From: Desulfobulbaceae bacterium
Lineage (GTDB): Bacteria > Desulfobacterota > Desulfobulbia > Desulfobulbales > Desulfocapsaceae
Assembly: GCA_009773475.1 (NCBI GenBank)
Contig: WSXV01000004.1
Location: 1-64,000 of the forward strand
Direction: 5' to 3'
DNA length: 64,000 nt
Positions 19,298-36,081 of the stretch are shown in pieces (within the stretch, counting starts at the first letter, position 1; the number at the start of each line of letters is the position of its first letter). The position numbers and the translations under genes are program-made. Below the pieces are notes generated by a model. That model made no database searches. It was not told the origin of the DNA and saw only the letters and a program-made list of their open reading frames with translations.

Positions 19298-19463
19298 TTT
19301 GCTTCTCCTTGGGGAAAAATTTAATACAATAGCGCTCATCATTGATATTGACCATCAACATCGTTTGACATTTATGAAGCAAACACCATGCCAAAACATC
19401 TAGCTTTATCTTAAGATAATAATATGAAAGGGGAAATGTTGTTGTAATATTTTTTTACAACTT

Positions 19464-19477
19464 TTGAGACAGATCAA
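19464..19477. promoter_or_regulatory. FNR/CRP-family-like binding site
   Basis: TTGAG, 4 nt, ATCAA differs from the FNR consensus (TTGAT-N4-ATCAA) at one position. It lies about 170 nt upstream of the Spy/ZraP-like start. A match this short can occur by chance. Confidence 0.3.
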
Positions 19478-19674
19478 ATAAGCATTTTTTACCCACTTTC
19501 CTCTGTCTAAGGAACAAGTATATGTATAAAAAATCCCATCATATGGGCTAAATCTTGACCTCAACGTCTGGCAGTACTGCAATCAGCACACGGGCCAAAC
19601 CTGATACGCATAGTGATGGGAATTTTTTGAAGCAATTTTGAGAAAAATACTTGATAACTTTGGGAGTAGATTGA

Positions 19675-19709
19675 ACAAAAAAAGCGCCTGCTCGAAAGAG
19701 CAGGCGCTT
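19675..19709 (-). terminator. rho-independent terminator downstream of the DUF4177 gene
   Basis: A perfect 12-bp GC-rich stem (19682-19693 with 19698-19709) around a GAAA loop, followed on the minus strand by seven T residues. The nearest upstream minus-strand gene is the DUF4177 gene 260 nt away, so it may end that transcript or an unannotated small RNA. Confidence 0.88.
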
Positions 19710-19967
19710 AAGGGGGAGGGAGGGGAAAATGAAGTATTTCACTTTGCATTCTATACTACAACAACTGTGCCAAGAAAGAACTAAATGTATAACTACATGA
19801 ATTTGATCACATGTTAAAAGTGTGGTAGGTCATTTACCTCCAACAAGCTGCTACATTATTATCCACGAGGCCGTCTGCGTGTATATTTTTTATCCAGATT
19901 CTTCACCGCCATGTAAGCAACAAATCAGTTTTTAAAAAAGTTGGAATGATCTGTTGATGAACCCACA

Positions 19968-20339
19968 TCATTCTATGCGGATGGAACCTACTCCTTCTTC
20001 CTCTTCTTCGATCCCTTTAGAAGTAGTGGCTTTTCTGGACACTGGTGTCTTTTCTGCCACGAGATCAGGAGCGGGCCGTTCACGGCTGTTAAGGGAAAAC
20101 CGGTGTGGTGAGACTGTCTCTTTCAGGGCTGACTCATGGACTATCTCAGGCTTTGCGTCCAAGGGTTGCTTGAAAACAGCCATCAATCCGTCCTGCAGGC
20201 CGAATAATGTCACCAGTTCCCAACCCGCCGAGCCAAATTCATTTAAGGACTGCTCAACTTCTGCTTCATCCAGAAAAGAGCTACCCAGCAGCCCTTCTTT
20301 TTTCAATCCATATTGTATGGTTTTATATCCCCAACGCAT
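19968..20339 (-). CDS. DUF4177-like protein
   Basis: The 123-aa product has a DUF4177-like N-terminal domain (residues about 1-60): MRWGYKTIQYGLKKEG, then LNEFGSAGWELVTLF, the Gly-Trp-Glu-Leu-Val motif being typical. The remaining half is low-complexity and charged, with an acidic run near the end (IEEEEEGVG), likely disordered. Function is unknown. ATG 20339 follows an AAAGGGAT site and matches the usual family start; an ATG four codons upstream (20351) is also possible. Confidence 0.7.
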   Translation of the reverse strand: MRWGYKTIQYGLKKEGLLGSSFLDEAEVEQSLNEFGSAGWELVTLFGLQDGLMAVFKQPLDAKPEIVHESALKETVSPHRFSLNSRERPAPDLVAEKTPVSRKATTSKGIEEEEEGVGSIRIE

Positions 20340-20415
20340 AATCCCTTTCATGCCTCTAATATTTAAGTTTTATAATTGCTAAACAATGGTTGACAGCACA
20401 AATTTGTATCAGGAG

Positions 20416-20628
20416 TTAAACCGTTCTTTTAGGCGTACGATTCTCAATTTTCTGATCAATATTACTTTTCTTTACATATAGTTGACATTCCATTCCAGAC
20501 GAAGCATAGACCACCCTGGCCGGGTTTTGAGCAGACTTGAAATGCATGGCCCGGCAGCCATAAGGTGTCTCTGGTTCATGTGTAACGTAATAGTGGATAC
20601 AAAATTGACAAACAGGGTGCTGAGACAT
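20416..20628 (-). CDS. small conserved Cys-rich protein, possible zinc-binding
   Basis: A 70-aa protein with CQFCIHYYVTHEPETPYGC (residues 8-26; Cys8, Cys11, His13, Cys26) and a later Cys in GMECQLY. Small proteins with a C-x2-C-x-HYY-V-T pattern followed by a PYGCRAM-like block recur in many proteobacteria; some carry a doubtful uracil-DNA glycosylase label that the sequence does not support. The cysteines and histidine could hold one metal ion. It lies between the MFS transporter and DUF4177 genes on the same strand. Confidence 0.65.
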   Translation of the reverse strand: MSQHPVCQFCIHYYVTHEPETPYGCRAMHFKSAQNPARVVYASSGMECQLYVKKSNIDQKIENRTPKRTV

Positions 20629-20711
20629 TTGTAAAAATACCCTTTGAATCTGGTGAAGAATGATAAACGGTGAATCGTTCTATGGGGAGAAAACATTACG
20701 CGAAATCACCG

Positions 20712-21920
20712 TTAGCCTTTATTTGTTACAGCCTCATTGTTTGATAATATAGCATTTTTTTCAAAAGAGACAAAGAAAGAGAGGGCCGCCCCACTCATAA
20801 TGGCCGTTCCGGTAACTAAAAATCCAACCCCAATGGAGGCAAAATCGCCAATACTTCCAATCAATGCCGGCAATAAGCCACCCCCTCCTAAAAAAGCCAC
20901 CGGGATACAGAGGGAGACCGCAAGTCCCTTTTTACCTTCGGGACCCATTGCTGACAAGACGGCAAATCCAGAGGGGAAAAAGCAGACAGCAACCATGGGC
21001 TGTAAGACCACAAAGGTCATGACCCACGGTAAAGCTCTGCTCAATCCCAGAGATACTGTGAAAATCCCTGCAAGCATCAGCGCACACCCCATGATGGCTT
21101 TATTTCCAATCCTGTCTCCAAGCCAGCCTGCGGCTAGAGGCATCATGAGAGCGGCAATCCTTGAATAGGCAAGCACGCGGCTGGCTTGTTCTGTGGATAG
21201 GCCTTGATCAGAGACCAGATAGAGAGGGAGCATGGCATAAATTCCAAGACTCGAACAGATGGCCAAGGAAAAAAACAGGGTCATCAACCAAAACTTTGTT
21301 TGTGACAAGACTGCATATACATCTGAAAAATTGGGTGCGTCAGTGAGCTCATTGCTTTTGTCTGCCATGGGAGCATATAAAACTCCGGCACTTATCATAA
21401 AAAGTCCAAACCACATTAACCCCTGCTGCCAGGTGCAATACCTCAATAATATATCAGCAAGAACAGGGGCTGCGATAAATCCAAAATTCGGTGCCAGCTC
21501 ATGGACAGCCATCCCTCGTGCTAGATAGGACGGTGGAACCAGTCGGCCTATGGAGTAAAGGCCGGAAGGTAGATAAAGACCTGCTGCCAGCCCCAGACAA
21601 AAAAGACCCAGGCGCATGGACCACAGGGAAGAGCACAAGCTCAAAATCAACAACACCGTGCCAGTGGCCACGGTGGAGAGAACAATGGTCTTTTTGTGAT
21701 TGATTCGGGAAGAGATACATCCAGAGCTAAGAATGGAGATGAAATAGCCGACAGAGATCAGCAGAAAAAGAGACCCCGAAGCTGCATGGTCGAGATCAAA
21801 TTCCCTTTCGAGAATTGGCAGAAGTGGTGAAAAAATGACACGAGCTGTGAAGTTTAAAAAAAACAGGCCTGTCAAAAGCAACAAGCCGCCATATATCCTA
21901 CTGGCAGATCTATCTTTCAT
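20712..21920 (-). CDS. major facilitator superfamily transporter
   Basis: A 402-aa inner-membrane protein with about 12 membrane segments. The MFS loop 2-3 motif is degenerate but visible (SGCISSRINHKKTIVLS near residue 70), and the matching loop 8-9 motif is AAGWLGDRIGNKAIMG. MFS proteins move small solutes using ion gradients. The substrate cannot be assigned: no biosynthetic or resistance gene is adjacent. It ends about 80 nt before the small Cys-rich gene, which may be in the same operon. Confidence 0.85.
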   Translation of the reverse strand: MKDRSASRIYGGLLLLTGLFFLNFTARVIFSPLLPILEREFDLDHAASGSLFLLISVGYFISILSSGCISSRINHKKTIVLSTVATGTVLLILSLCSSLWSMRLGLFCLGLAAGLYLPSGLYSIGRLVPPSYLARGMAVHELAPNFGFIAAPVLADILLRYCTWQQGLMWFGLFMISAGVLYAPMADKSNELTDAPNFSDVYAVLSQTKFWLMTLFFSLAICSSLGIYAMLPLYLVSDQGLSTEQASRVLAYSRIAALMMPLAAGWLGDRIGNKAIMGCALMLAGIFTVSLGLSRALPWVMTFVVLQPMVAVCFFPSGFAVLSAMGPEGKKGLAVSLCIPVAFLGGGGLLPALIGSIGDFASIGVGFLVTGTAIMSGAALSFFVSFEKNAILSNNEAVTNKG

Positions 21921-22116
21921 GCTTTGATTTTAATAAAAAAAATTCATTTGGAAGAGATCAGGAAGGTCAAAAGAGACGAAATTGGATATGTGTCATGGAC
22001 AATATTAAAATAAATAAAATCAACATATTAAGTTGCTTGGTAAATAAAAATCTGCCTCAGCTTGAGGGTAGCAGCTAATGAAATGCGAAGTATACAAATT
22101 CAGGTAAGGTCGTTTT

Positions 22117-22626
22117 TCAGGGAGAGCTTTTTTTAGGGTAATCAAAAAAGATTAAATGAGCAGTGTTGTATTTTATTTGTTGCCAGGAAGAACATTGAAA
22201 CTCCAACGCAACAATTCCGCATGTAGGAATCTGAATGATTTCAGGGGCGTGGTGATGATCGATGAGGAGGTCTGCAAAATCAGTAATGACGGGATTGTGT
22301 CCAATGACCAACAAGGCTTTAATTTTATCAGAACAGGTAGTAACCTCTGAGAAAAGGTCTTCGATGGAGCTGGTATACAGTCGCTCATGTTGCTCAATTA
22401 ATTTCCTGGAGACTTTAAGGGGTGGCGCCAGGAGCTCCGCCGTCTGCACCGCTCGCAGTGCCGTACTGCTCCAGATAGCATCAATTTTAATTTTTCTGCC
22501 AGCAAGTCTTTGCCCCATGGCCGGAGCGTCTCGCTGGCCCCGTTTATTCAATGGGCGTTCATGGTCAGCCAGAGAGGAATCCGTCCAACTGGATTTAGCA
22601 TGCCGGACTAGATAGAGTGTTCTCAT
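22117..22626 (-). CDS. sixA: SixA-type phosphohistidine phosphatase
   Basis: A 169-aa histidine phosphatase. The catalytic RHG-type motif is LVRHAKSS, with His9 as nucleophile, and the second histidine is in VIGHNPVI. SixA removes phosphate from phosphohistidine, for example on HPt or PTS proteins. ATG 22626 overlaps the parA stop (ATGA), so the two are translationally coupled; the longer frame to 22659 would lie inside parA. SixA genes often sit beside CHAD-domain genes, as here, hinting at a shared phosphate or polyphosphate role. A stand-alone HPt gene is 8 kb away and could be a partner. Confidence 0.88.
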   Translation of the reverse strand: MRTLYLVRHAKSSWTDSSLADHERPLNKRGQRDAPAMGQRLAGRKIKIDAIWSSTALRAVQTAELLAPPLKVSRKLIEQHERLYTSSIEDLFSEVTTCSDKIKALLVIGHNPVITDFADLLIDHHHAPEIIQIPTCGIVALEFQCSSWQQIKYNTAHLIFFDYPKKSSP

Positions 22627-23363
22627 GACAAAACTCCTCGTCGCCAGACTTCCTGCCATAACTGTTTATAGGCAGTAGCAGCAGAAGAGGCGGACGCTGA
22701 TACCGCCACTGGTTGCCGATAGATACCCATTTTTTCGACATCTGCAAGATAGGCAATCTCACTCTCCAAAAAGAGTTTTTTCTTGCCAAATTTTGCAATA
22801 ATATCAGTGTGCATTTTTTTCCGTTTATCGACCATGGAGAAAAAAGCCGCCAGTTTTTTTCGATTCACCTCCAGCTTGTCAGCCAGTTTTATCAATTGAG
22901 CGAAAGAGAGAATGGAAAGGGTTGTGGGGATAACCGGAGTCACAACCAGATCTGCGGCCATGATAATGTTTTCAGAAAGCAAGGTAATATTGGGCGGACA
23001 ATCAAGAATCAAGACATCATACTCATCCTTGAGGCCGGCAAAGATTCTCTTCAGCTCTTTTGCCGATCCGCCGCGATCATCTAAAGCTATATCGAGATTA
23101 CGAAATGAAAAGTGGGCCGGCAGCAGGTCAAGATTTTCAAAATCCGTGCCTCTGATAAATGGCTCCAAGTCTCCTTTAAGAAACTGCTTCCGATTAAAAC
23201 TCTCTTTAGCGCGAATCCGGTAATAATATCCTGCGGCTCCCTGGGGATCCATATCACAGAGCAGAGTTTTTTTCCCGCTATGAGCACTGTCGTAGGAAAG
23301 ATTTACTGCCGTTGCAGTCTTCCCCACACCACCCTTGCTTGAGTAGATAGCGATAATTTTCAT
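22623..23363 (-). CDS. ParA-family ATPase
   Basis: A 246-aa deviant-Walker ATPase. The Walker A box is KGGVGKTA (residues 10-17) with the signature lysine, Walker A' is CDMDPQGAA (near 37-45) and Walker B is VLILDCPP (near 120). Such proteins position plasmids, chromosomes, or protein cargo such as chemoreceptors. There is no parB partner and no centromere-like repeat, so this is an orphan ParA. It is coupled to sixA and follows the CHAD gene by 85 nt; the CHAD product or a polyphosphate granule could be its cargo (inference). Confidence 0.88.
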   Translation of the reverse strand: MKIIAIYSSKGGVGKTATAVNLSYDSAHSGKKTLLCDMDPQGAAGYYYRIRAKESFNRKQFLKGDLEPFIRGTDFENLDLLPAHFSFRNLDIALDDRGGSAKELKRIFAGLKDEYDVLILDCPPNITLLSENIIMAADLVVTPVIPTTLSILSFAQLIKLADKLEVNRKKLAAFFSMVDKRKKMHTDIIAKFGKKKLFLESEIAYLADVEKMGIYRQPVAVSASASSAATAYKQLWQEVWRRGVLS

Positions 23364-23448
23364 TGGATGTCGGAAATGAAAAAGCTGAATTTTTCAGGTT
23401 TTGTACAGCCTGTCGGGCAAATAATCTGAATCAAGGGGGCTAAAAAAA

Positions 23449-25008
23449 TTATTTAAAAAGTAATGTAAATAATTTGCTGTTTTCGACAGTGGTAAACTGT
23501 TCAAATGTTTGTTCAAACTTATTGCGTACGTCAATCTGTTCTTCGTATAAATGGGTAATCAGGCCGCCCAGTGCAGCTGCCACCTTAATTGCATTTTTCT
23601 GTTCTTTCAGGGCAAGTGCATTCTGATATTCTCCTAACATCTTCTGTTGCACGGAAAGATCGTTGAAATTCCCCAGATTGTCCTGTAGCTTTTTAAGGGA
23701 TTTAACCAGGATATCCATTTCGGTTTCAGGAAATAACGAGCGGTAAAATTCCAGCAGATAGCGAAGTTTTTTTGCTTGAATTCGCAAGCAATGCAATTCA
23801 GTATCAGGGCTCTGAGGCCCTATCTGGGACCCAGACTCAAGAATAGAGCGCAATCGTTTTCTGATGGACTTGCTGGCCACCTCTTTGCATGATTTTTGGC
23901 CGGAAATAAGTGAGGATAAGAGAATGGAATTTTCCAGATACTCCTGCCATTGGGCCATGAAAGAGTGAAACTTTCGCGATTGCAAGGCCTTTCTCAGCCG
24001 TTGAAGTTCTTTCAACCGTTGCTTGGCAAGTCCTTGAAAAAAAAGAGTCAACCCCTCCTGCAACCCTTCCGGCAACATGGATTGATAGTCTTTCTTAGCT
24101 AAAAGATAGACATCCAGATCACGAACAGGACCGGTGAATGTACCAATATCCTTCAATCCTTGTTGAAATCGTACAATATCATCAGGATGCACTATTTTTT
24201 TAATGCTTCCTAATAAAGATCTGGTCCTGCGCAAGGCTACCCGGAAATCATGAAGAAATTCCGTGTCAAAATCTTCTATGATGCCGAAAACATTTCGCTC
24301 CATCCCTTTAAGTAACTGGAAAAAGATCTTTTGTGCGGCAAGGATAACGGATTCTGCGGGATCAAGGATGATGGAAAACTGAGAGCTGTAGTGGTGGGAA
24401 TTTTCCCCAAGCTCCGTAAGGGCGAGTCGCAAGGTTCTTTCTTCCGAATATCCTGCCTCCAAGCCTTGGAGCTTGAGACCTTCTGTGACCTTCTCCAGTA
24501 TCTTGTCATAGCCGCGAACTCCGAGTAGTCGCAACGATCCGCCAAGGGAAACTGGCTGGCATCCTTCTTCATTATCGGGGGGTATCAGTTGATTTAACTC
24601 AAGGGAACCGGAAAAGACTATTTTTTGATCCCGATTCATAACCTGAAAACATTGTGACTTTCGGGTAATCTCTGCACGAGGAAGTAATGCCCGGATGCCA
24701 GCCACAGTCATGAGTTTTTCACCCAGTGCTCCATCGGAGAAATGAAGGGGAAGGGGTTTTTCATGAGTAGGCCCTTCTTCCTGAAGTTTGAATTCACCGG
24801 CAAAACTGGTCAACACAAAGCTAGTCTTCCCAATCCGAAAACAGAGTAATTCCTTATTGTTGAGTCGCCAATCAAAGGTGTCCAGATAACAGATGGTATC
24901 AACCGATATCCCGCACTCACGAATATGGTACTTCTCTGGAAGTCCGGATAACAGTGATGCAAGCTCAACTGGGCCGGGAAGAATATAGGCGAGGCAGTTT
25001 TCGTTCAT
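23449..25008 (-). CDS. CYTH-like and CHAD domain protein (polyphosphate-binding)
   Basis: A 519-aa protein. The N-terminal part (about 1-200) has CYTH-like features (YLDTFDWRLNNKELLCFR near residue 42). The C-terminal part (about 220-505) is a CHAD domain, with the signature HDFRVALRRTRSLLGS and the matching LRIQAKKLRYLLEFY, whose conserved histidines and basic residues bind polyphosphate. CYTH domains hydrolyse triphosphates, but several CYTH acidic and basic residues are not obvious here, so catalysis is uncertain. It starts 15 nt after argJ and precedes parA and sixA in the same direction. CHAD proteins have been found on polyphosphate granules in other bacteria. Confidence 0.85.
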   Translation of the reverse strand: MNENCLAYILPGPVELASLLSGLPEKYHIRECGISVDTICYLDTFDWRLNNKELLCFRIGKTSFVLTSFAGEFKLQEEGPTHEKPLPLHFSDGALGEKLMTVAGIRALLPRAEITRKSQCFQVMNRDQKIVFSGSLELNQLIPPDNEEGCQPVSLGGSLRLLGVRGYDKILEKVTEGLKLQGLEAGYSEERTLRLALTELGENSHHYSSQFSIILDPAESVILAAQKIFFQLLKGMERNVFGIIEDFDTEFLHDFRVALRRTRSLLGSIKKIVHPDDIVRFQQGLKDIGTFTGPVRDLDVYLLAKKDYQSMLPEGLQEGLTLFFQGLAKQRLKELQRLRKALQSRKFHSFMAQWQEYLENSILLSSLISGQKSCKEVASKSIRKRLRSILESGSQIGPQSPDTELHCLRIQAKKLRYLLEFYRSLFPETEMDILVKSLKKLQDNLGNFNDLSVQQKMLGEYQNALALKEQKNAIKVAAALGGLITHLYEEQIDVRNKFEQTFEQFTTVENSKLFTLLFK

Positions 25009-25023
25009 TTCTTAGCCGACCCT

Positions 25024-26208
25024 TCAGCTCCGGTAATCAGCATTGATCTTGACATAGTCGATGGAAAAATCACAAGTATATACCTCGGCGCATGCACTTC
25101 CATCTTTCATATCGATGGTCACAAGGATATTTTTTTCTTTCAGGATGGCAGTGGCCGATTTTTCCGCCTCTTTCCCCAGACCCAGCCCATTTTTTACAAT
25201 GACAACATCACCAAAAGCGATATCAACACGTTCCGGGTTAATACGCACCCCAGAGCGGCCCATAGCAGCGATGATTCGGCCCCAGTTGGCATCTTCACCA
25301 AAAAAAGCAGTTTTTACCAGACTGGAATTGGCCACGGTCCTGGCAATCTGCTCAGCATCCATCTCTTCGCGAGCGCCACAAACACGAATGGTTATAAATT
25401 TGGTAGCCCCCTCTCCATCTGCAACGATCTGCAAGGCAAGATCCTTCAACAGGTCTTCCAGGGTCTGTTGAAAGAGCTCCTGGTAATGTAAAGCGCCTTC
25501 ATCAATCCAGGGATTATCGGCGGCACCATTGGCCATCACCAGAATCATATCATTGGTGCTGGTGTCGCCGTCAATGGTGATTCGGTTAAAGGTACGCACC
25601 ACCCCTTTGAGTAGGGCACCATGGAGTTGCGGAAAGCCGATTTGCGCATCAGTCAGCACAAAGGCAAGCATGGTTGCCATATTGGGCATGATCATGCCGG
25701 CCCCTTTGGCCATGCCTATCAAATGAACCTCCTGTTCTCCAATCATAACAGTTCGGCAGGCTGTTTTTGAAACGGTATCCGTGGTCATGATTGCCTTGGC
25801 AACCTGATCAAAATTGTCAGCAGAAAGTTTGCCGACAAGCTCCGGCATGGCCTTGACTATGGCATCAACGTTAAGCTGTTCACCGATAACACCAGTGGAA
25901 GAGATTTGAACCATTTCTGGAGCTATACCAAGAGCCGCTGCTGCACAATCTCCGGTAGCGATGGCGGCCAACATGCCATTCTCACCGGTGCAGGCATTGG
26001 CACACCCGCTATTAATCAAAATTGCCTGAGCTTTCCCCTGTTTTAGACGCTCAATATCAAGGACAACGGGGGCCGCCTTCACCTGATTTGTGGTAAATGC
26101 TCCGGCAGTAACGACCGGCGTTTCGCTAAAGATTAGGCCAAGATCCAATCTATCCGCATATCTGATACCAGCAGCAACGGCTGCTGTTTTAAATCCTTTA
26201 ATTTTCAT
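25024..26208 (-). CDS. argJ: glutamate N-acetyltransferase / N-acetylglutamate synthase ArgJ
   Basis: ArgJ moves the acetyl group from N-acetylornithine to glutamate in the cyclic arginine pathway, and bifunctional forms also use acetyl-CoA. The 394-aa precursor shows the self-cleavage site NMATMLAF, where the Thr after Ala becomes the nucleophile of the beta chain, along with NSGCANACTG and FNRITIDGDTSTND. ATG 26208 (MKIKGFKTA) is the conserved start; the open frame to 26301 is not needed. It heads a probable operon with the CHAD gene 15 nt downstream, an unusual association. Confidence 0.95.
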   Translation of the reverse strand: MKIKGFKTAAVAAGIRYADRLDLGLIFSETPVVTAGAFTTNQVKAAPVVLDIERLKQGKAQAILINSGCANACTGENGMLAAIATGDCAAAALGIAPEMVQISSTGVIGEQLNVDAIVKAMPELVGKLSADNFDQVAKAIMTTDTVSKTACRTVMIGEQEVHLIGMAKGAGMIMPNMATMLAFVLTDAQIGFPQLHGALLKGVVRTFNRITIDGDTSTNDMILVMANGAADNPWIDEGALHYQELFQQTLEDLLKDLALQIVADGEGATKFITIRVCGAREEMDAEQIARTVANSSLVKTAFFGEDANWGRIIAAMGRSGVRINPERVDIAFGDVVIVKNGLGLGKEAEKSATAILKEKNILVTIDMKDGSACAEVYTCDFSIDYVKINADYRS

Positions 26209-26795
26209 TTGTCTTTCTTCAAGCCTCATTGGAGAAATCAGTGAGTAAAAATGTTGGCCATTAAACAGCACATAAGGGGAGCTGGAGTTTTTTAGAAACA
26301 AACGTTAAATGCTTTATACAAACAATACTACAATGCTAACCGTGCCTCTGAAAGTATACTATTTCACAATAGTTCAAAGATTATACTGAACAAGGCCTAA
26401 CGATTCAAGTCTTCATTGACAAACGGCTGTGCCATCTGAAGTGAAAAAAATGTAAATGTGAGGTTGGTCAGGTCTTTCACTCTCTCCCTACCCCACATTC
26501 TCCACGCCAAAAGTTGACGGATACGTGAAGATAGAATAACATTTTGTATTATCTCTAATAATTTCATACTCTCATAAAGGCATCTTCTTCGTGTGCTGAT
26601 TTTTTTGTCATTTGTACCGGACGGCGATTTCGGGGAAATCATCTCTTGCTGCTTGAATTGCTTTAAATTGCATGGCAGGGGCTGCAATCTCGTGGCTCTT
26701 TCGACCAAAAAAACTCATTTATTATTAAGGAGGTACGAAAAAGAAAAAACCAGAAAAATAGTCATCAATTTCAACAATCAAAAATGGAGATGGAA
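26209..26795. other. intergenic, divergent argJ / cytochrome promoter region
   Basis: A 587-nt gap that must hold both promoters. A strong Shine-Dalgarno sequence (AAGGAGGT, 26728-26735) stands alone with no start codon within 20 nt; the cytochrome ATG is 60 nt further on. A 103-codon minus-strand frame (26397-26708) lacks coding character and a ribosome-binding site. Nothing else is recognised. Confidence 0.4.
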
Positions 26796-28109
26796 ATGAA
26801 ACTATTAAAAAAATCTTTCGCCTTACTTGGTCTCACGGTGGTGCCGCTGATGATGTCCGGCACTCATGTACAGGCTGAGGATATAAAAAAAGCGAAAACC
26901 ATTGCAGAACTAGTGGCCATGTACGACTCGACGTCTTGCCATGAATGTCACCCTGAAGCCCATGAACAATGGCAAAAATCACTCCATGCCCGCTCTATTT
27001 TCGGCCCGGAGAACACTGCTAGAACAGCAGCAACATTTAAAACTACCATTGAAAACGGTTTAAAAGAATGGCCCTATTCCGGGGTAAAAAAGAATGAGGA
27101 CATTGGCGTCAAGCATCTGAGGATTTGTACAAAATGTCATTTGCCCCAATTGGAAGATGCAGAAGACAGTGTTGCTCAGGAGATTGTCAAAAATATTTAT
27201 GCCTTTGCCGATGAAGGCAATGAAGCAGCGAAAAAAACTTTGCAAAGTTTGAATATTGATTGCCTGATCTGTCATAACAGAAATGCCATTGTCCACAAAT
27301 GGACTGATGGAATGCCTCAGAAAGATGCCGTTTATGGCACCACTGACGGCAAGCATGATGATCCAGACCGCCCAGTGATGAAGCAGAGTAAGATTATGAA
27401 GGAATCAATTCTCTGCGGACAGTGCCATGGACTGGGGCCAAATTTTGAGCTCGAGAATCCGAGCCAATGCGCAACACTCTACGGTGCCCATCTGTATACA
27501 TACATTCCTGAAGGCGGTGGGGAAACTTGTCAAAACTGTCATATGGAAAAGAGTGGCCTGGGGCACAACATGCAGAGCTATCGTTCACCGGAAATGGCAA
27601 AGATGGCCCTTGATGTCGAGGTTGAGGCCAAGGCTTACCAGTGGCGTGATGGATCTATCATGACCCCTGCCGCCACGGTTATTGTGGATATCAAAAATAA
27701 AGCCGGTCATCCCATACCCGACGGCTGACCGACCCCCAACCGGGTGGTCCTGGATGTGACCGCGAAGACAACTGATGGAAAGGAATTTTACAAGAACCAG
27801 GTCATTTATATGCCGACTCCGCAACAGATGGGACGTGGAGATAAAATGGGTAGAGGCCCATATGAAAAGAGTGGCTTGATCCATGATTCAAGCCTGCCTC
27901 CTCTCAAGACTACCCAGGAAAAGTTTGAGATTCCTGTGTATATTGAATCGACGAAAGATGGAAAAACAGTGCGAAACATTATCGCCAATGATTTTATTGT
28001 CGATGTTGAGATATCGTATCTGCCTTACGGTAAAAAAGAAGATCCCGGTAATAATCAAAAATGGGTAAGCATTTCAAAAAAACTGAGCATTCAAAAAGGC
28101 GGGAAATAA
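26796..28109 (+). CDS. pentahaem c-type cytochrome, predicted selenoprotein (ExtKL-like)
   Basis: A secreted cytochrome of 437 aa when UGA 27726-27728 is read as selenocysteine (residue 311). Residues 1-27 are a signal peptide. Five CXXCH haem sites lie at about 48-52 (CHECH), 111-115 (CTKCH), 156-160 (CLICH), 207-211 (CGQCH) and 245-249 (CQNCH). The frame continues after the UGA in phase, from GHPIPDG to PTPNRVVLDV, and stays protein-like for 126 more codons. A SECIS-like hairpin starts at the UGA. I recall similar (seleno)cytochromes labelled ExtKL in metal-reducing Desulfobacterota, where they are thought to act in extracellular electron transfer; that match is from memory. ATG 26796 follows GGAG by 6 nt. 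A plain stop mutation is the alternative. Confidence 0.82.
27726..27749 (+). promoter_or_regulatory. UGA-Sec codon with SECIS-like hairpin
   Basis: Starting within the UGA, GACC (27727-27730) pairs with GGTC (27746-27749), one G bulges, and ACCC (27732-27735) pairs with GGGT (27742-27745) around the 6-nt loop CCAACC. Bacterial SECIS elements sit immediately after the UGA like this. The loop lacks the G-U of the E. coli fdhF element, but loops vary between groups. Confidence 0.65.
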
Positions 28110-28125
28110 TCTAGAAGTTTTCATG

Positions 28126-28162
28126 CAGGGCCGAGCCTGGAAGCAGGATCGGCCCTGTTTTT
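28126..28162 (+). terminator. rho-independent terminator of the cytochrome gene
   Basis: A strong stem (CAGGGCCGA with TCGGCCCTG plus CCTG with CAGG around GAAG), then TTTTT. It lies 17 nt after the stop at 28107-28109, which supports the longer read-through gene as the true transcription unit. Confidence 0.92.
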
Positions 28163-28200
28163 AACTTAAAAAAAGCAACGTCTCCAACAACTTGCAAAGA

Positions 28201-28462
28201 TTAAGAATAAATAAAAACAAAACGATCATCATCAATGTTTATCCGCAAACGGCCCTCATGTTTTCGGCCATAAACCTCCCAGCCTGGCTCCCCTTTGATC
28301 TCACACTGGAGACATTGTGGCGAGTGAACGCCATTATCCCGATCGCCACACGAAATCAACAACGCTAAATCATTCTCTTGCTCCGCTAGAAGCCTGGCAA
28401 CGTTTTTTTGCCTGTTCAAATGATATCAAACCCCCTGTAAATCGACACTCAATTCTCTTCAT
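28201..28462 (-). pseudogene. small gene interrupted by a one-base frameshift at an A7 run
   Basis: From ATG 28462, preceded by GAGGAG, the frame reads MKRIECRFTGGLISFEQAKK and then hits TGA. The next frame continues from the same point with NVARLLAEQENDLALLISC, then CLQCEIKG, and ends at 28201. The two halves meet at seven T (28403-28409, A7 on the coding strand). One base fewer would give an uninterrupted 86-aa protein with four cysteines, a GWEVYGRKHEGRLRI middle and an acidic end (INIDDDRFVFIYS). I do not recognise the family. It may be a mutation, a phase-variable tract, or a sequencing error. Confidence 0.5.
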
Positions 28463-28728
28463 TTGTCATTCTCTCCTCGTGATTTATCACCACGAACAAA
28501 ACAGGGTTACATTTGGCTGGTCGTTGTTGATCACCGTTGATCTCCCCAGCCCTGCCTTTGCACATTGCATATAATTTTCTTCAGTAATTTGTAAAGCTCA
28601 TTTGTAATGGTATTCCCGCTCTCCTGCGCTGACATCCTCTTCCAATTTCAGAGAATTCAGAGTAATGTGCCCGTGATTTTCAGAGTAACAACCCGTCTTC
28701 TTCTCCTTCAATTTCAAAGGTATTATTC

Positions 28729-30414
28729 ATGAGCACAGATGATAAAAAGATTATCTATTCGATGATCAAGGTAAGTAAATATTATGATAGTAAGCCCATC
28801 CTGAAAGATATCTCCCTTTCCTATTTTTATGGCGCCAAGATCGGGGTGCTGGGATTGAACGGTTCCGGGAAGTCCACCTTGCTGCGCATCCTGGCGGGCA
28901 TTGACACTGAGTTTAACGGCGAGACTATTCTTTCGCCGGGGCTCACCGTCGATTATCTCGAGCAGGAACCCAGGCTTGATCCGGATAAAACCGTGCGCCA
29001 GATTGTTGAAGAAGGCGTACAGGGAACGGTGGATCTTCTCAATGAGTTTAACGTCATCAATGAAAAATTTGCCGAGCCCATGACTGACGATGAAATGCAG
29101 GCACTCATTGACCGCCAGGGCGAGGTGCAGGATAAGCTGGACACCTTAAACGCCTGGGATCTGGACAGCAAACTGGAGATGGCCATGGACGCCCTGCGCT
29201 GCCCGTCTCCTGAAGCCCGCTGCGAGATTCTTTCGGGAGGTGAAAAACGACGGGTTGCCCTCTGTCGTATCCTCCTCAAGCAACCCGACATCCTGCTTCT
29301 TGACGAGCCAACCAACCATCTGGATGCTGAATCCGTGGCCTGGCTGGAGCACCATCTCCAGCAATACGCTGGAACCATCATTGCCGTGACCCATGACCGT
29401 TATTTTCTCGATAATGTAGCTGGCTGGATACTTGAGCTTGATCGTGGGGTCGGCATCCCATGGAAGGGAAATTATTCCTCCTGGCTGGAACAGAAAGAAA
29501 AACGATTGGCGACGGAAGAAAAATCAGAGAATGACCGCCGGCGAACCCTGCAGCGAGAGCTGGAATGGATTCGAATGTCTGCCAAGGGGCGCCAGACAAA
29601 ATCCAAGGCAAGGATCAACGCCTATGAGCAACTGCTCAGTCAGGAAACCGAAAAACTGGCACAGGAGTTACAGATCTTTATCCCGCCCGGTCCGCGACTT
29701 GGCAAGGTGGTGATTGAGGCAGATCATATCCGCAAAGCCCTGGGAGATAAGCTGCTGGTGGAAGATCTCAACTTCAAGCTCCCTGCTGGTGGTATTGTCG
29801 GGGTTATCGGCCCCAATGGCGCCGGCAAATCCACTCTTTTCAAGATGATCACCGGCCAGGAAACACCTGATGGCGGCACGATCCGCCTGGGTGAAACCGT
29901 CAAGCTGGCCTATGTCGATCAAAGTCGTGATGTCCTGAACCCGGAGCATACAATATGGGAGGCGGTCTCTGAAGGTCAGGAAACCGTTTGGCTGGGCACA
30001 AAGGAAATCAATTCCAGGGCCTATGTCGGCAAGTTCAATTTTTCCGGCTCGGCCCAGCAAAAAAAGGTGGGACTTCTTTCAGGAGGACAGCGGAACCGGG
30101 TTCATCTGGCACGGATGCTCAAGGAGGGAGGGAATGTTCTGCTCCTTGATGAGCCGACCAATGATCTGGATATCAACACCATGCGGGCGCTGGAAGAGGC
30201 GTTGGTGAATTTTTGCGGATGCGCTGTGGTTATCAGCCATGACCGCTGGTTTCTTGACCGCATCGCCACCCATATGCTGGCCTTTGAGGGCGACTCACAG
30301 GTTGTCTGGTTTGAGGGGAACTACTCGGATTATGAAAAAGATCGAAAAGCGAGACTGGGGGCTGCAGCTGACCAGCCGCATCGCATCAAATATCGACAAC
30401 TGACCAGGCAATAA
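28729..30414 (+). CDS. ettA: energy-dependent translational throttle EttA (ABC-F)
   Basis: A 561-aa ABC-F protein without membrane segments. It has two ATPase domains: Walker A GLNGSGKST (near residue 42) and GPNGAGKST (near 362), signatures LSGGEKRR and LSGGQRNR, and Walker B LLLDEPTNHLD and LLLDEPTNDLD. The linker (about 245-320) carries the basic helical region ending in KGRQTKSKARINAYEQLL. EttA binds the ribosomal E site and gates the first elongation steps according to ATP/ADP ratio. The length and the strong match make EttA more likely than other ABC-F types. It is monocistronic. Confidence 0.93.
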   Translation: MSTDDKKIIYSMIKVSKYYDSKPILKDISLSYFYGAKIGVLGLNGSGKSTLLRILAGIDTEFNGETILSPGLTVDYLEQEPRLDPDKTVRQIVEEGVQGTVDLLNEFNVINEKFAEPMTDDEMQALIDRQGEVQDKLDTLNAWDLDSKLEMAMDALRCPSPEARCEILSGGEKRRVALCRILLKQPDILLLDEPTNHLDAESVAWLEHHLQQYAGTIIAVTHDRYFLDNVAGWILELDRGVGIPWKGNYSSWLEQKEKRLATEEKSENDRRRTLQRELEWIRMSAKGRQTKSKARINAYEQLLSQETEKLAQELQIFIPPGPRLGKVVIEADHIRKALGDKLLVEDLNFKLPAGGIVGVIGPNGAGKSTLFKMITGQETPDGGTIRLGETVKLAYVDQSRDVLNPEHTIWEAVSEGQETVWLGTKEINSRAYVGKFNFSGSAQQKKVGLLSGGQRNRVHLARMLKEGGNVLLLDEPTNDLDINTMRALEEALVNFCGCAVVISHDRWFLDRIATHMLAFEGDSQVVWFEGNYSDYEKDRKARLGAAADQPHRIKYRQLTRQ

Positions 30415-30447
30415 AGCTTTTTTGCTGTTTCTTCTTCGTTTGAAATT

Positions 30448-30493
30448 AAAAAAGCATTCAGGTTTGCACCGAGAATGATGCCTACCTGAATGC
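30448..30493 (-). terminator. terminator of the HPt-tsaC-purDE unit
   Basis: GCATTCAGGT (30454-30463) pairs perfectly with ACCTGAATGC (30484-30493), and on the minus strand six T residues follow. It lies 36 nt after the HPt stop. Confidence 0.85.
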
Positions 30494-30528
30494 GAATTTG
30501 AAAAAACAAGAATATAATCTGTAAGTCC

Positions 30529-30849
30529 CTAAAGCTCAGCCGCCATTTTCAACAAGATCTGAAGCTGAGGAAGCTTTTCCCTGGCGACAGCCACAGAACC
30601 TTCCCGACAGTCTTTTTCGATGGCAGCGGTCACATCTCGGATTGCCTCCAATCCAAGACTGGCCGCTGCACCTTTAATTGAATGGGCTGGCCCTCTGGCC
30701 GCGACCGGGTCTCCCTTTTCCACAGCCTGTGCCAGAACAGCCAGATCTGATGCCGAAGAATCCTTGAATATGATCAATAATTCCTGGAGCAGCTCTTCGT
30801 CATCATCCACTTGGCCCATGGCAAATTCTTTATTCCAACATAGATCCAT
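30529..30849 (-). CDS. stand-alone HPt domain protein
   Basis: A 106-aa histidine phosphotransfer domain. The phosphorylatable His56 lies in ARGPAHSIKGAAASLG, the standard HPt motif, inside a four-helix bundle. Such proteins shuttle phosphate between response regulators and hybrid kinases. No kinase or regulator lies nearby, so its partners are encoded elsewhere; SixA (22117-22626) could dephosphorylate it (inference). It is the last gene of a unit with tsaC 33 nt upstream. Confidence 0.88.
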   Translation of the reverse strand: MDLCWNKEFAMGQVDDDEELLQELLIIFKDSSASDLAVLAQAVEKGDPVAARGPAHSIKGAAASLGLEAIRDVTAAIEKDCREGSVAVAREKLPQLQILLKMAAEL

Positions 30850-30882
30850 ATCCTGCCTCTCTCCTGTGCCAACTTTTTGATT

Positions 30883-31527
30883 TTATTGACCTATTGCCTG
30901 ATTTAACGCAGAAAAATCAATAGCGCCTTCCCTAAGTAACTGTAATTTTCCATCCATAAATCCGACAACAGTCGAACTCATCCCGCCAGGCGTCTGACCG
31001 CCATCGAGGATACAGGCTACCTCGTCTCCAAAAAAGTGCAGAACGTCCTCAGCAGTCCGGGCAGCAGCACATCCTGAGAGGTTTGCGCTGGTTGCAGTCA
31101 TCGGCCTTTTCCAAAACCGTCCAAATTTGCATGCTACCGGATGAGGCGAAATTCGAATCCCGATGCCACCACTCTTTCCGGTAAGCATTGATGATAGCCC
31201 CTCTACAGCGGGAAAGACCAGGGTCAAAGGACCAGGCCAGAATGATTTCATCAAGAGTTTATAGGCACCAGGAATTTCACTGGCCAAATCAGCGAGCTGC
31301 GCTTCATTCTGGATAAGAATTGGAAAAGGCTTGTGTAAGGCACGACGCTTCAAGCTAAACAAAGCTGTCAAAGCCTTCTCATTAAAGGGGTCAACGGCTA
31401 GTCCATAAAAAGTCTCGGTGGGAAAAGCGACAATCTTCCCCTGAGCGAGACATGTCACTGCCTTTTGGAAATCCTGCTCCAAAGGGCAGTGAGTTGAATT
31501 CGTCAGCCCGGTACTGGAAATAATCAA
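30883..31527 (-). CDS. tsaC: threonylcarbamoyl-AMP synthase, Sua5/YrdC family
   Basis: A 214-aa YrdC-fold enzyme that makes threonylcarbamoyl-AMP from threonine, bicarbonate and ATP, the first step in the t6A37 tRNA modification. Typical segments are KIVAFPTETFYGLAVDP, the LKRRALHKPFPILI block with basic residues for nucleotide binding, and TSANLSG. The start is TTG 31527, overlapping the purD-purE stop (TTGA) for coupled translation; no ATG is available nearby. The Sua5 C-terminal domain is absent, so TsaC is the better name. Confidence 0.92.
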   Translation of the reverse strand: MIISSTGLTNSTHCPLEQDFQKAVTCLAQGKIVAFPTETFYGLAVDPFNEKALTALFSLKRRALHKPFPILIQNEAQLADLASEIPGAYKLLMKSFWPGPLTLVFPAVEGLSSMLTGKSGGIGIRISPHPVACKFGRFWKRPMTATSANLSGCAAARTAEDVLHFFGDEVACILDGGQTPGGMSSTVVGFMDGKLQLLREGAIDFSALNQAIGQ

Positions 31528-33347
31528 CCCTCAACCTTTTTGGCTTTATCCTCAACGTCTTTGATCATCTCCATCCTGAATGCCTGTAATCTGGCGGCAA
31601 TCCCTTTGTCTTCAAGGGCAAGAATGCGCGCAGCAAGCACTGCTGCATTCTTCGCTCCTGGCTTACCGATAGCCATGGTCGCAACAGGGATTCCAGGGGG
31701 CATCTGCACCGTGGCCAGCAAGGCATCCATGCCGTTCAGAGGCGAGGAATCGAGAGGAACGCCAATAACCGGTAAATCGGTATGGGCGGCAAGGACTCCA
31801 GCTAGATGGGCAGCCATTCCGGCCCCGGCGATAATGATTTTGAGTCCACGTTGATCAGCTGTTTTGGCCCAGCGGACAGCCCGCTCTGGAGTTCTGTGCG
31901 CGGACGCCACTGTCATCTCATAGGGAATCTGCATCTTTTTTAAAAAAGCAGCGGCCTCTTCCATAACCGGTAAGTCAGAGTCACTGCCCATGACGATCCC
32001 CACCAAAGCTGATGTAGATCTGGGGGCTTGCGGTTTACTAGCTCTCCCGTCCGCTTGATATTCCATTTGCTTTTCATGACTTCGCAAGGCCTTCGCTCCA
32101 ATATCATGACGATAATGAGCTCCCGTCCACTGGATATGGTTGACGGCCTTATAAGCCTGCTCAATGGCTTTTTCCAGGGTCTTGCTCACGGCCGTTATCC
32201 CTAAAACCCGACCGCCGGCCGTGACTGTCCGTTCATTTTTGATTGCAGTTCCGGCATGAAAAATCTGAACTCCATCGACTAGAGATGCCGCCGTAAGTCC
32301 CTTGATCACCTTTCCTGTCTCATACTGACCGGGATAACCACCGGAAGACATCACTACACAAACCGTAGGCCGAGGATCAATCTTCATCTCGATGGTATCA
32401 AGTCGGCCATCAATCACGGCCTCGAAGATATCCACCACATCACTTTTCAGGCGCATCAGTAAGGGCTGGGCCTCAGGGTCGCCAAAGCGGCAGTTGAACT
32501 CAAGTACCTTCACATTATCCCCGTCAATCATCAGGCCGGCATAAAGCATTCCTTTGAAAGGGCGTCCTTCTGCTGCCATTCCGTTAATAACCGGCAGCAT
32601 AACCTTATTCATAACAAAATCAGCAATGGCCTCAGTAACAACCGGAGCGGGCGAATAGGCGCCCATCCCACCAGTGTTGGGCCCCTTATCTCCATCAAAA
32701 ACGGCCTTATGATCCTGAGATGTGGGAAGGGGCAGGATGGTTTTTCCATCGGTGAAAGCAATATAGGACGCCTCTTCTCCTTTCAGGCAATCCTCAATCA
32801 CCACCTTGCTTCCAGCATCCCCAAAGGCCTTGTCCTGCATGATCAGGGTGACCGCATCTTTGGCCTCTTTGAGGGTGGTCGCGACAATCACGCCCTTGCC
32901 TGCTGCCAACCCGTCAGCCTTAATAACAAGCGGTACGCCTGCTTGTGTTATGTGTTTTTTCGCCTTTTTTAAATCATCAAAGACCTTGAAAGGGGCCGAT
33001 GGGATATCGTACTTAGCCATAAACTCTTTGGCAAATACCTTGCTTCCTTCTAGGATGGCCGCACTTTTGCGTGGTCCGAAGATCCGTAGTCCCTCTTCTT
33101 CAAAACGGTCAACAATGCCACAGGCCAGTGAAGATTCCGGGCCGACTATGGTTAAGTCGATCTTTTCTTTTTTGGCAAATTGGCACAGTCTTTCGATGTC
33201 AGTTGCTGCGATATCAACACATTCAGCCATCTTTTTAATCCCGGCATTGCCGGGGGCGCAGTAAATCTTTATGACTCTGGGGCTTTGAGATATTTTCCAG
33301 ACCAGCGCATGCTCACGCCCTCCCGAACCAACCACCAATATTTTCAT
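31524..33347 (-). CDS. purD-purE: PurD-PurE fusion: GAR synthetase and N5-CAIR mutase
   Basis: A 607-aa fusion of two purine enzymes. Residues 1-~425 are phosphoribosylamine-glycine ligase: MKILVVGSGGREHALVW, an ATP-grasp core with GLAAGKGVIVA and the EFNCRFGDPEAQ end of the site. A linker of about 20 residues rich in Ala, Pro and Ser follows. Residues ~445-607 are a class I PurE with GSDSDLPVMEEA and ASAHRTPERAVRW. The two steps are not consecutive, so this is not simple channelling. ATG 33347 has a GGGAG site 8-9 nt upstream and gives the canonical PurD start. tsaC overlaps its stop. Confidence 0.94.
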   Translation of the reverse strand: MKILVVGSGGREHALVWKISQSPRVIKIYCAPGNAGIKKMAECVDIAATDIERLCQFAKKEKIDLTIVGPESSLACGIVDRFEEEGLRIFGPRKSAAILEGSKVFAKEFMAKYDIPSAPFKVFDDLKKAKKHITQAGVPLVIKADGLAAGKGVIVATTLKEAKDAVTLIMQDKAFGDAGSKVVIEDCLKGEEASYIAFTDGKTILPLPTSQDHKAVFDGDKGPNTGGMGAYSPAPVVTEAIADFVMNKVMLPVINGMAAEGRPFKGMLYAGLMIDGDNVKVLEFNCRFGDPEAQPLLMRLKSDVVDIFEAVIDGRLDTIEMKIDPRPTVCVVMSSGGYPGQYETGKVIKGLTAASLVDGVQIFHAGTAIKNERTVTAGGRVLGITAVSKTLEKAIEQAYKAVNHIQWTGAHYRHDIGAKALRSHEKQMEYQADGRASKPQAPRSTSALVGIVMGSDSDLPVMEEAAAFLKKMQIPYEMTVASAHRTPERAVRWAKTADQRGLKIIIAGAGMAAHLAGVLAAHTDLPVIGVPLDSSPLNGMDALLATVQMPPGIPVATMAIGKPGAKNAAVLAARILALEDKGIAARLQAFRMEMIKDVEDKAKKVEG

Positions 33348-33502
33348 GCATGGACTCCCGTGAAAAATTAAATTCTGTTTAATTAACCTGTAATGTATCA
33401 ACGTTGGAGACGAAGGAATGCTAAATCATAAATGATATTTTTTATCATAAAAGAATTAGGAAACCTCGCCTCACCATTGACAATTTCGTTGTAATGGATA
33501 AA

Positions 33503-33524
33503 ATTGAATGAATAACCATTCAAT
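33503..33524. promoter_or_regulatory. palindromic operator upstream of the TetR-family gene
   Basis: ATTGAATG and CATTCAAT are perfect 8-nt inverted arms around AATAAC. Operators of this GAATG-N-CATTC type are common for TetR regulators of the FadR/AcrR kind. It lies 52 nt upstream of the regulator start, in the divergent gap with purD-purE, so it probably mediates autorepression and might also affect purD-purE. Confidence 0.65.
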
Positions 33525-33575
33525 ACCGGTCACGTTTTTTCAATCTCTTAATTCTATATCGTTCTAATAAAGTTA

Positions 33576-34175
33576 ATGAAAGCTCAAGATAAGCACATAA
33601 AAATAATCAATGCGGCCACAAAAGTTTTTGCAAAGAAAGGATTCTTTAACGCAAGAATATCCGATATTGCCAAAGAAGCCAAGGTTGCTGATGGGACTAT
33701 TTACCTTTACTTCAACAATAAGTTTGACATCCTGATATCTGTCTTTGAAGAAGAAATCAGCAATCTGATCGAACAGGTAAACAAATCACTGCTTCTTGAG
33801 CCAGATCCTAGGAATCAGCTGAGAATTTTTGCCACTAAACATCTGACGATGATGAAAAAGAATAAAAACCTGGCAGAAGTGATTCAGATCGAACTGAGGC
33901 AGAGTACTAAGCTCATAAAAGATTACAGAAACAACAAGTTCAGTGAATATATTGATATCATTTCTACAATTATTAAAAACGGCCAGGCACAGAATATCTA
34001 TCGTACGGACATCAAACCAGGCATTGCCAAGCGTGCTTTTTTTGGAGCCCTAGATGAGATCTCACGAGTCTGGAGTCTTTCGCTGGAGACGGAATACACC
34101 GTTGAGGAGACGATCAATCAGATTATGGATATTTTTCTTATTGGAGTTCTGGTTCCAACTGCGCGGACTGAGTAA
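33576..34175 (+). CDS. TetR/AcrR-family transcriptional regulator
   Basis: The 199-aa product has a TetR helix-turn-helix at residues about 10-56 (INAATKVFAKKGFFNARISD, then DGTIYLYFNNKFDIL) and a helical ligand-binding C-terminal half. The C-terminal layout is like the FadR-type repressors of fatty acid degradation genes, but the ligand is not certain. A perfect palindrome at 33503-33524 is its likely own operator. The last 38 nt overlap the 3' end of the convergent capD-like gene. No fatty-acid gene is adjacent. Confidence 0.85.
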   Translation: MKAQDKHIKIINAATKVFAKKGFFNARISDIAKEAKVADGTIYLYFNNKFDILISVFEEEISNLIEQVNKSLLLEPDPRNQLRIFATKHLTMMKKNKNLAEVIQIELRQSTKLIKDYRNNKFSEYIDIISTIIKNGQAQNIYRTDIKPGIAKRAFFGALDEISRVWSLSLETEYTVEETINQIMDIFLIGVLVPTARTE

Positions 34176-36081
34176 CTAAGTCAGGACTGGAAGCCTTGTA
34201 CTCAGGAACAAGGCCGTGCATAATCGTCAGAATCTTTTCATCATCTCGCATGAGAGCAACACGCTGCAGTTCAATCAACTGATTCTCAAGCCACCCCCAC
34301 TCCACATCCCGACTCCTGGCCAGAAGCAATTTCACATGGCTGGTCTTTTGTAAAGCCTCACTTTTGTGCAATAATTCCTCAAATAACTTTTCTCCAGGCC
34401 GCAATCCGCTGTAAATAATCTTTATATCTTTCTCCACCTTGTAACCGGAAAGCTCAATCATCTGCCGTGCCAGGTCATCAATCCGTACCGGTTCCCCCAT
34501 GTCGAGCACAAAAATCTCGCCACCTTGACCCATGGCGCCAGCCTGGAGAATCAGACTGACTGACTCAGGGATAGTCATGAAATAACGGGTAATCTCCTTA
34601 TGGGTCACGGTAACCGGTCCACCATCTGCAATCTGCTTTTGAAACAGGGGGATCACCGAGCCTGATGACCCCAGGACATTGCCAAATCTGGTAGTTATAT
34701 ATTTCGTCTTGGAGCGATTATTCAGATTCTGGCAATAAATTTCGGCAATCCGCTTCGTGGTGCCCATCACATTGGCAGGATTAACGGCCTTATCCGTTGA
34801 AATCATAACAAAACGACTGGTGCCGAATCGATCGGCAGCGTCTGCGACAACCTTGGTGCCAAAGACATTATTGCAAACCCCTTCTGCAGGATTCGCTTCG
34901 AGCATTGGAACATGTTTGTAGGCCGCTGCGTGATAGACCACATTTGGCTTATAGGTAGTGAAAAGCCAATGTACCCGTTCAGCATTTTTCACATCACCAA
35001 GAACGGCTGCAAACTGAAGGTCGGGAAATTTGTGCCGCAGTTCAAACTCAATGGCGTAAAGGTTAAACTCGCCGTGTTCAAAAATGATGAGTTGAGCCGG
35101 ATTCTGAGCCGCAATTTGACGACATAACTCGGAACCGATGGAACCACCACCACCGGTAACCAGCACCACTTTGCCAGCAAGATATCCGGTGATGGCATCA
35201 TGATCGAGTTCCACCACCTCTCTCCCCAACAGATCTTCAACCGTGACTGATCGTAATTTTTCGACATCAACTTGACGCCCGGCCATTTCAAAGACGGAAG
35301 GAAGAGTCTGACACCGTACCCCGATCCGATTGCACTCCAAAACCAGTCGTTGTAACAGGGATTTATGCGCGGAAGGAATGGCGAGAAGAACAAGCTCAAT
35401 AGACAATTCCCTGATACATTTTTCTAACTGATCAGTCCCTCCACGTACTGGAATACCATGGATCTCACGATTAACCATAGCAGTATTGTCATCAAGAAGG
35501 GCAAGTGGGTGATAGGCATCTCGGTGCAGCAGATCCCTGACCAGCATTTCCCCTGCCCTGCCCGCCCCTATAATCAACGTACGTTTTCCCTCTTGAGAAG
35601 ATAACCCAAGACGATGATCTTTATACCATCGGTATGCAATACGGGAGGCAGACAGACCGGCAACAAGCAACAAGGGATACAACAGGAGTACAGAACGGGG
35701 TATTCCCTGCAGACGGTTCAATAAGAAGGATATTGCTACAATCGCAAGACTGCCAAACCCGGCTACCTTGAAGATTCGAACCAGGTCAGGAATAGACGCA
35801 AACCGCCAGACACCGCGATAGAGACCTGAGTACCAGAAAAATACACCCTGCACAGGTATTGCAATAAGAATTAAATCATACAGAGAACGTTGAAATTCCG
35901 GGGGGATAGGGCCAAGGTTAAAACGCATCCAGTATGCCAGAATAAATGCCAGCGGCACACATAGCAAATCATGCAGAAGAGCTGACCAGCGGTTTAAAAG
36001 GATAAATTTAAAAAATTTCTTTGTCATAAAGTTAGCGGAAATATCCTTTTGCCATTCTGTCTGGCTAAAAATCGGAAACAA
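34138..36081 (-). CDS. CapD/WbpM-type UDP-sugar 4,6-dehydratase, membrane-bound
   Basis: A 647-aa protein. Four to five N-terminal membrane segments (about 25-140) precede a nucleotide-binding region (GAGRAGEMLVRDL near 170) and a C-terminal SDR domain (about 300-600) with VLVTGGGGSIGSELCRQI and the inverting-dehydratase active site TDKAVNPANVMGTTKR, where Met replaces the usual Tyr. WbpM-like enzymes make UDP-4-keto-6-deoxy-GlcNAc for QuiNAc or FucNAc. The gene ends the polysaccharide cluster, after the WecA-like gene. The start is probably TTG 36081, with ATG 36027 as an alternative; neither has a good ribosome-binding site. Confidence 0.9.
   Translation of the reverse strand: MFPIFSQTEWQKDISANFMTKKFFKFILLNRWSALLHDLLCVPLAFILAYWMRFNLGPIPPEFQRSLYDLILIAIPVQGVFFWYSGLYRGVWRFASIPDLVRIFKVAGFGSLAIVAISFLLNRLQGIPRSVLLLYPLLLVAGLSASRIAYRWYKDHRLGLSSQEGKRTLIIGAGRAGEMLVRDLLHRDAYHPLALLDDNTAMVNREIHGIPVRGGTDQLEKCIRELSIELVLLAIPSAHKSLLQRLVLECNRIGVRCQTLPSVFEMAGRQVDVEKLRSVTVEDLLGREVVELDHDAITGYLAGKVVLVTGGGGSIGSELCRQIAAQNPAQLIIFEHGEFNLYAIEFELRHKFPDLQFAAVLGDVKNAERVHWLFTTYKPNVVYHAAAYKHVPMLEANPAEGVCNNVFGTKVVADAADRFGTSRFVMISTDKAVNPANVMGTTKRIAEIYCQNLNNRSKTKYITTRFGNVLGSSGSVIPLFQKQIADGGPVTVTHKEITRYFMTIPESVSLILQAGAMGQGGEIFVLDMGEPVRIDDLARQMIELSGYKVEKDIKIIYSGLRPGEKLFEELLHKSEALQKTSHVKLLLARSRDVEWGWLENQLIELQRVALMRDDEKILTIMHGLVPEYKASSPDLVTQSAQLEPELQ

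Follow-up and report, generated by a model that had tools for sequence, protein, structure and literature searches.

On contig WSXV01000004.1 of a Desulfobulbaceae bacterium (assembly GCA_009773475.1), of which positions 1 to 64,000 of the forward strand are the window analysed here (64,000 nucleotides, nt), a single plus-strand frame at 26796-28109 crosses one TGA (27726-27728) and encodes 437 residues when that codon is read as selenocysteine (Sec, U). The two standard open reading frames (ORFs) are in phase across the TGA, as the first-pass annotation had described, with 126 codons 3' of it. All five CXXCH haem-binding motifs (starting at C48, C111, C156, C207 and C245) lie 5' of the UGA, in agreement with the earlier placing of five haems beside a putative Sec site. 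The protein is matched over residues 12-432 by NF040886, "multiheme c-type cytochrome (seleno)protein ExtKL" (E 1.3e-171; 570.8 bits, cut-off 250), and has the ExtKL layout of five CXXCH followed by GHxxPDG-U; in Pfam, Cytochrome_C7 was the sole match over cut-off. By sequence the gene is thus a full-length extKL, a member of an already known family. The reading favoured here, with a probability of about 0.93, is that ExtKL (MccSep) is a selenoprotein whose UGA would be decoded as Sec to give one 437-residue product. That the organism's own product contains selenium is very highly probable.

The extKL gene and its relatives

Features of the locus are collected in Table 1. A standard gene finder splits extKL in two, which makes a five-haem, selenium-bearing product easily missed in Desulfobulbales.

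Table 1. Features at the extKL locus (window coordinates)
Feature	Position	Strand	Remarks
Possible ribosome-binding site, GGAG, for ATG 26796	26786..26789	+	Seen by eye
extKL, 437 codons, UGA read as Sec	26796..28109	+	Translated with TGA = U; stop TAA 28107-28109; NF040886 residues 12-432
Likely signal peptide, residues 1-27	26796..26876	+	VQA at end; judged by eye only
Haem motif 1, C48HECH52	26937..26951	+	C48 and C51 in 57/59 homologues; H52 in 58/59
Haem motif 2, C111TKCH115	27126..27140	+	59/59 homologues
Haem motif 3, C156LICH160	27261..27275	+	59/59 homologues
Haem motif 4, C207GQCH211	27414..27428	+	59/59 homologues
Haem motif 5, C245QNCH249	27528..27542	+	59/59 homologues
GHPIPDG, residues 304-310, includes H305	27705..27725	+	H305, P308 and D309 in 59/59, partly forced by the member filter
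UGA codon, predicted Sec311	27726..27728	+	UGA 53/59, Cys 4/59; aligned to MccSep position 325
SECIS-like hairpin GUGGUC-CU-GGAU-GU-GACCGC	27744..27763	+	Apical G 27752, 22-23 nt past UGA; codon lock; 93.9% of cells paired
Intrinsic terminator, then T-run	28125..28158	+	-27.7 kcal/mol, z -5.9, 0/200 shuffles as stable

A known relative is ExtKL of Geobacter sulfurreducens (GSU2937 and GSU2936), which belongs to NF040886 and, like the window protein, has five haems and a UGA between its halves (PMC5877670, PMC6148476, PMC1914089). One of these papers states that the two halves "may be a single protein" (PMC6148476), and a 2026 review counts ExtKL among selenoproteins (PMC13188914). MccSep, "Multiheme cytochrome c selenoprotein", is represented in the PDB by one sequence with X at the site (9wt8, 9wta, 9wtb) and by a second with Ala, named both MccSep and MccSep U325A (9wt9, 9wtc). 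Residues 31-437 of the window protein align with MccSep (E about 1e-154), placing the UGA residue at position 325; the two differ in sequence. A literature search by name found no paper on these entries. The small pentahaem cytochromes of cable bacteria are ExtKL-like and encoded outside an ext cluster, one of them with a two-gene structure (PMC11976967); in the available text of that paper 'selenocysteine' does not occur and 'selen' appears only inside a cited title. A more distant relative, matched weakly in sequence, is the pentahaem cytochrome c552 of Thermochromatium tepidum (PDB 5ze8), which has Ala at the Sec site (HAMPTG-A-P). Among plasmid records one distant relative was found (24.8% identity), and a search of viral contigs found none.

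The earlier reading of the gene as a predicted seleno-cytochrome is right in substance, and the family was already known (NF040886, PMC1914089, PDB 9wt8-9wtc). What is added is the likely position of the selenocysteine insertion sequence (SECIS), the exchanges with Cys and a link to arsenic islands; these family-level results weigh more than a single new member.

Predicted decoding of the UGA codon and the probable SECIS hairpin

The sel genes proposed earlier as a check were all found. The assembly, which spans 3.03 Mb in 26 contigs at 91.48% completeness, encodes SelA (622 bits), SelB (392 bits), SelD (375 bits) and a tRNA-Sec (selC) with anticodon UCA (69.1 bits), on which ARAGORN agrees. 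A second tRNA-Sec match (47.9 bits) was barely over the cut-off and was not called by ARAGORN. The frame of the genome's own SelD (L031, contig C1) also holds a UGA (KAAG-U-AAKL), and SelD is probably itself a selenoprotein.

Homologues were surveyed in 395 genomes sampled evenly across the phylum, of which 174 matched the family model at E ≤ 0.001 and 40 exceeded its cut-off. Those 40 hold 50 genes over the cut-off: 43 with one TGA, six without a stop (one of these cut by a contig end) and one with TAA. After addition of nine genes from named genomes and one member below the cut-off (G035), filtering by the motif [NS].[ATIL][GP]H..PD[GS], which itself demands the His, Pro and Asp, left 59 distinct members, without the gene cut by a contig end. 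At the site these have UGA in 53 cases, Cys in four (all UGU), Val in one and Ile in one, and never UAA or UAG; the same UGA is thus carried by independent genomes. In a tree built with the site masked (58 rows, the very long branch L084 left out), the Cys forms fall at three places, with three changes forced by well-supported branches, and Val/Ile accounts for one change; placement is less sure for two Cys rows on long branches (L065 and one of L066). Each of the four genomes that carry a Cys copy has a UGA copy as well.

Two loci (L066 and L067, in G027 and G203) are tandem extKL pairs without UGA. Ile or Val occupies the Sec site of the first copy; the second copy is a Cys form in L066 and is cut by a contig end in L067. 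The first half of the Cys-form copy in G289 (L069) is interrupted by an in-frame TAA, and this copy is either decaying or affected by a sequencing error.

The alignment of homologues therefore bears out Sec or Cys at the site, and together with the sel genes and the conservation downstream it supports the seleno-cytochrome proposed earlier, with Sec in GHPIPDG-U-PTPNR. The further suggestion that Sec replaces a Cys holds in part: Cys does occur in 4/59 homologues, but Sec is the common state, Cys is scattered and c552 has Ala, so Sec is not a simple replacement of a family-wide Cys.

Coding character continues past the UGA. Identity to 12 relatives is 62-94% over the 126 codons after it and 70-96% before it, about equal conservation, and 34 of the 41 differences from one relative (L018) downstream of the UGA sit at codon position 3. 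A strong terminator-like hairpin with a T-run is present only after the second half of the gene, as had been claimed; this hairpin was not in the output of a generic terminator scan. In a structure predicted with 13 sequences, strands of a β-sandwich lie on either side of the UGA, which falls after the second strand. The haem domain was predicted poorly (mean pLDDT, predicted local distance difference test, 49.9), and fold searches were informative for about residues 253-435 only; MccSep was absent from the best 50 matches listed in either.

The SECIS is probably the hairpin at 27744-27763 rather than the one proposed earlier, which starts inside the UGA. It is codon lock and not covariation that carries the case for it. 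For each codon around the UGA, the choice among synonymous codons was compared with that in the rest of the same genes, counting only members that keep the residue. In the Sec forms, codons +6, +7, +8, +10 and +11 are locked to GUG (39/39), GUC (42/47), CUG (50/52), GUG (44/47) and ACC (42/46), where 12.3, 13.6, 18.1, 13.7 and 24.4 were expected; none of 20,000 simulations was as high. These codons fall inside the hairpin. The codon before the UGA is also biased (GGC in 41/52, expected 22.0), and weaker synonymous bias occurs at others, among them -5, +3, +5 and +14. The six non-Sec forms are without such lock, albeit in small number.

Across the alignment, 93.9% of cells pair in this hairpin against 22-69% for slid versions. 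Its covariation score of 0.136 was equalled in 0/500 shuffles, and three of its pairs have two-sided changes (five cells); the version slid by -3 has seven two-sided cells, more than those five. Over 26 nt it folds at -9.3 kcal/mol, modestly more stable than shuffles (z -1.64; 8/200 as good). The constraints given for bacterial SECIS elements (bSECIS) are an apical loop of 3-9 nt with G in the first two positions, a stem of at least 4 pairs, a distance of 16-37 nt from the UGA and an energy of ≤ -7.5 kcal/mol (PMC13188914). The window element fits them, with loop UGGAU 22 nt from the UGA and -9.4 kcal/mol. With the energy limit, 50/53 Sec forms pass and 59/318 control sites do so; geometry without that limit is a weak test, passed by 53/53 Sec forms and 185/318 control sites.

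For the hairpin beginning within the UGA, 77.6% of cells pair in 49 distinct Sec homologues. Its lower pairs, between GACC (UGA plus the next codon) and GGUC, are largely kept (four pairs in 43-49/49), and the four upper pairs in only 25-35/49. Among folds of the window's own 45 nt it has the lowest energy, yet stands at shuffle level (z -0.15, 81/200 as good). As a SECIS it is doubtful and was set aside, half or more of its length not being codon-locked and its fold being like that of shuffles.

Several observations speak for caution. The hairpin inside the UGA beats that at 27744-27763 on covariation (0.153 vs 0.136) and on two-sided cells (17 vs 5), and RNAalifold predicted no consensus pair on the 45-nt alignment. 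In 6/53 Sec forms (L037, L038, L042, L050, L073 and L078) a hairpin other than the conserved one fits the rules best. The Sec site is also occupied by Val and by Ile, each in one of the 59 homologues.

The paper that proposed the ExtKL family (Fujita et al. 2007, PMC1914089), in its available text, reported no SECIS and no homologue lacking Sec, and allowed for an operon of two genes. The codon-locked hairpin and the three separate Cys exchanges would fill, by sequence, that gap.

Gene neighbourhood and arsenic islands

In the window, extKL is flanked by genes for ArgJ and a CHAD protein upstream and for an ABC-type (ATP-binding cassette) ATPase downstream; the upstream order is common to L017 and L018, and the downstream order is also kept in L018. 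Geobacter extKL sits within extHIJKLMNOPQS (PMC5877670), whereas no such neighbours are evident at the window copy: no ext-cluster gene was evident among the ORFs of 19001-36000, in a search limited to that stretch and with family scans of three neighbours. An ext setting is typical of Geobacter without defining the family, and cable bacteria lack it (PMC11976967). Nor is an ars neighbour evident at the window copy; neighbour-based arguments on function thus rest on other genomes.

Neighbours were compared at 59 loci and their flanking sequence (57 distinct places, two of them present twice; some cut by contig ends) with queries from L019, L074 and L075, by which distant versions may be missed. 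Relatives of ACR3, ArsC, ArsP, thioredoxin and/or CcdA lie near extKL at 11 loci (L019, L073, L074, L075, L078, L079, L080, L098, L102, L105 and L109). At eight of these (L074, L075, L078, L079, L080, L098, L105 and L109) the extKL strand also carries, within about 1.7 kb, genes for a CXXC thioredoxin and a CcdA-like protein; in the first five, 47-131 bp separate the end of the CcdA match from the ExtKL match that follows. The gene for the arsenite pump, acr3, is within 6 kb of extKL in 8 of the 25 genomes with both over cut-off, against an expectation of about 0.14 when genomes are treated as independent (G035, with acr3 and an ExtKL below cut-off, was left out). The eight genomes represent five families, all other than that of the window copy, and three of them belong to one family.

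Since ars operons are known to include CcdA and thioredoxin genes (PMC2963123, in whose available text the word cytochrome does not appear), the two may act in arsenate reduction or belong to the ars system rather than to ExtKL. Searches of open-access papers, those on ExtKL included, found no report of extKL in ars islands. The recurring association with acr3, thioredoxin and CcdA is a testable lead on the role of selenium. At two Desulfobulbus loci, L020 (7485-7916) and L021 (137 aa), a same-strand ORF with four CXXCH ends just before extKL; its product is a possible electron partner of ExtKL.

Proposed role of Sec311 and rival readings

ExtKL is probably a cytochrome of the periplasm, in which five haem-binding motifs are combined with a C-terminal β-sandwich. 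Ribosomes would decode the UGA as Sec, directed by the hairpin at 27744-27763 and using SelA, SelB, SelD and tRNA-Sec encoded elsewhere in the genome. The product would be one 437-residue precursor with Sec311 in a loop after GHxIPDG. The first-pass annotation had inferred that this residue is redox-active or ligates a haem. A redox-active rather than structural role is the somewhat favoured one, in which Sec311 would relay electrons between the haems and either a soluble partner or a substrate (thiol, or oxyanion of Se, Te or As). That extKL of other families lies close to acr3, and often to genes for thioredoxin and CcdA as well, is consistent with this, as is the Geobacter ext cluster, in which deletion of extI impairs reduction of selenite and tellurite (PMC5877670, PMC6148476); extI is not extKL, which weakens that argument.

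Alternatively, Sec311 may be mainly a ligand of haem iron and not a reaction site. It lies six residues past the invariant H305, and only H64, H257 and H305 are near-invariant outside CXXCH in the 59 members; with three such His for five haems, some of the haems must be five-coordinate or use a different ligand. This role is a tentative alternative, appreciably less probable than redox activity.

A more specific and unlikely proposal makes ExtKL a thiol-to-haem electron transducer for metalloid handling. Since extKL in several families stands in arsenic islands beside genes for a periplasmic thioredoxin and a CcdA-type membrane thiol carrier, Sec311 would exchange electrons with this thioredoxin and send them on through the haem chain; for orphan copies such as the window's, a shared periplasmic thioredoxin would take its place. 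A selenenylsulfide between Sec311 and C225 was also considered. C225 (27468-27470), a Cys outside the haem motifs, is present in 59/59 ExtKL, Val and Ile forms included, and thus is not solely a partner of residue 311.

Partial Sec decoding could instead yield two products, with a 310-residue five-haem form that has its own function at low selenium. Incomplete UGA decoding is common, and all five haem motifs precede the codon. The short form would, in the predicted structure, retain just two sandwich strands, and a dual product is improbable.

That extK and extL are separate genes with an ordinary UGA stop between them could be argued from the separate locus tags of the G. sulfurreducens halves and from the 2007 paper (PMC1914089), in which no SECIS was found. 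However, the stop is UGA in all 53 homologues that have one at the site, the other six have a sense codon in an open frame, the predicted β-sandwich spans the UGA, several codons downstream are locked and MccSep is one 450-residue chain in its PDB entries. Two separate genes are thus very improbable. A pseudogene or sequencing error, to which a lone in-frame stop and an assembly in 26 contigs might point, has a negligible probability, being contradicted by relatives in independent genomes that repeat the UGA and by downstream differences mostly at codon position 3.

Elsewhere in the window, a cobalamin riboswitch was matched on the minus strand at 18345-18546 (94.1 bits, gathering score 31.5).
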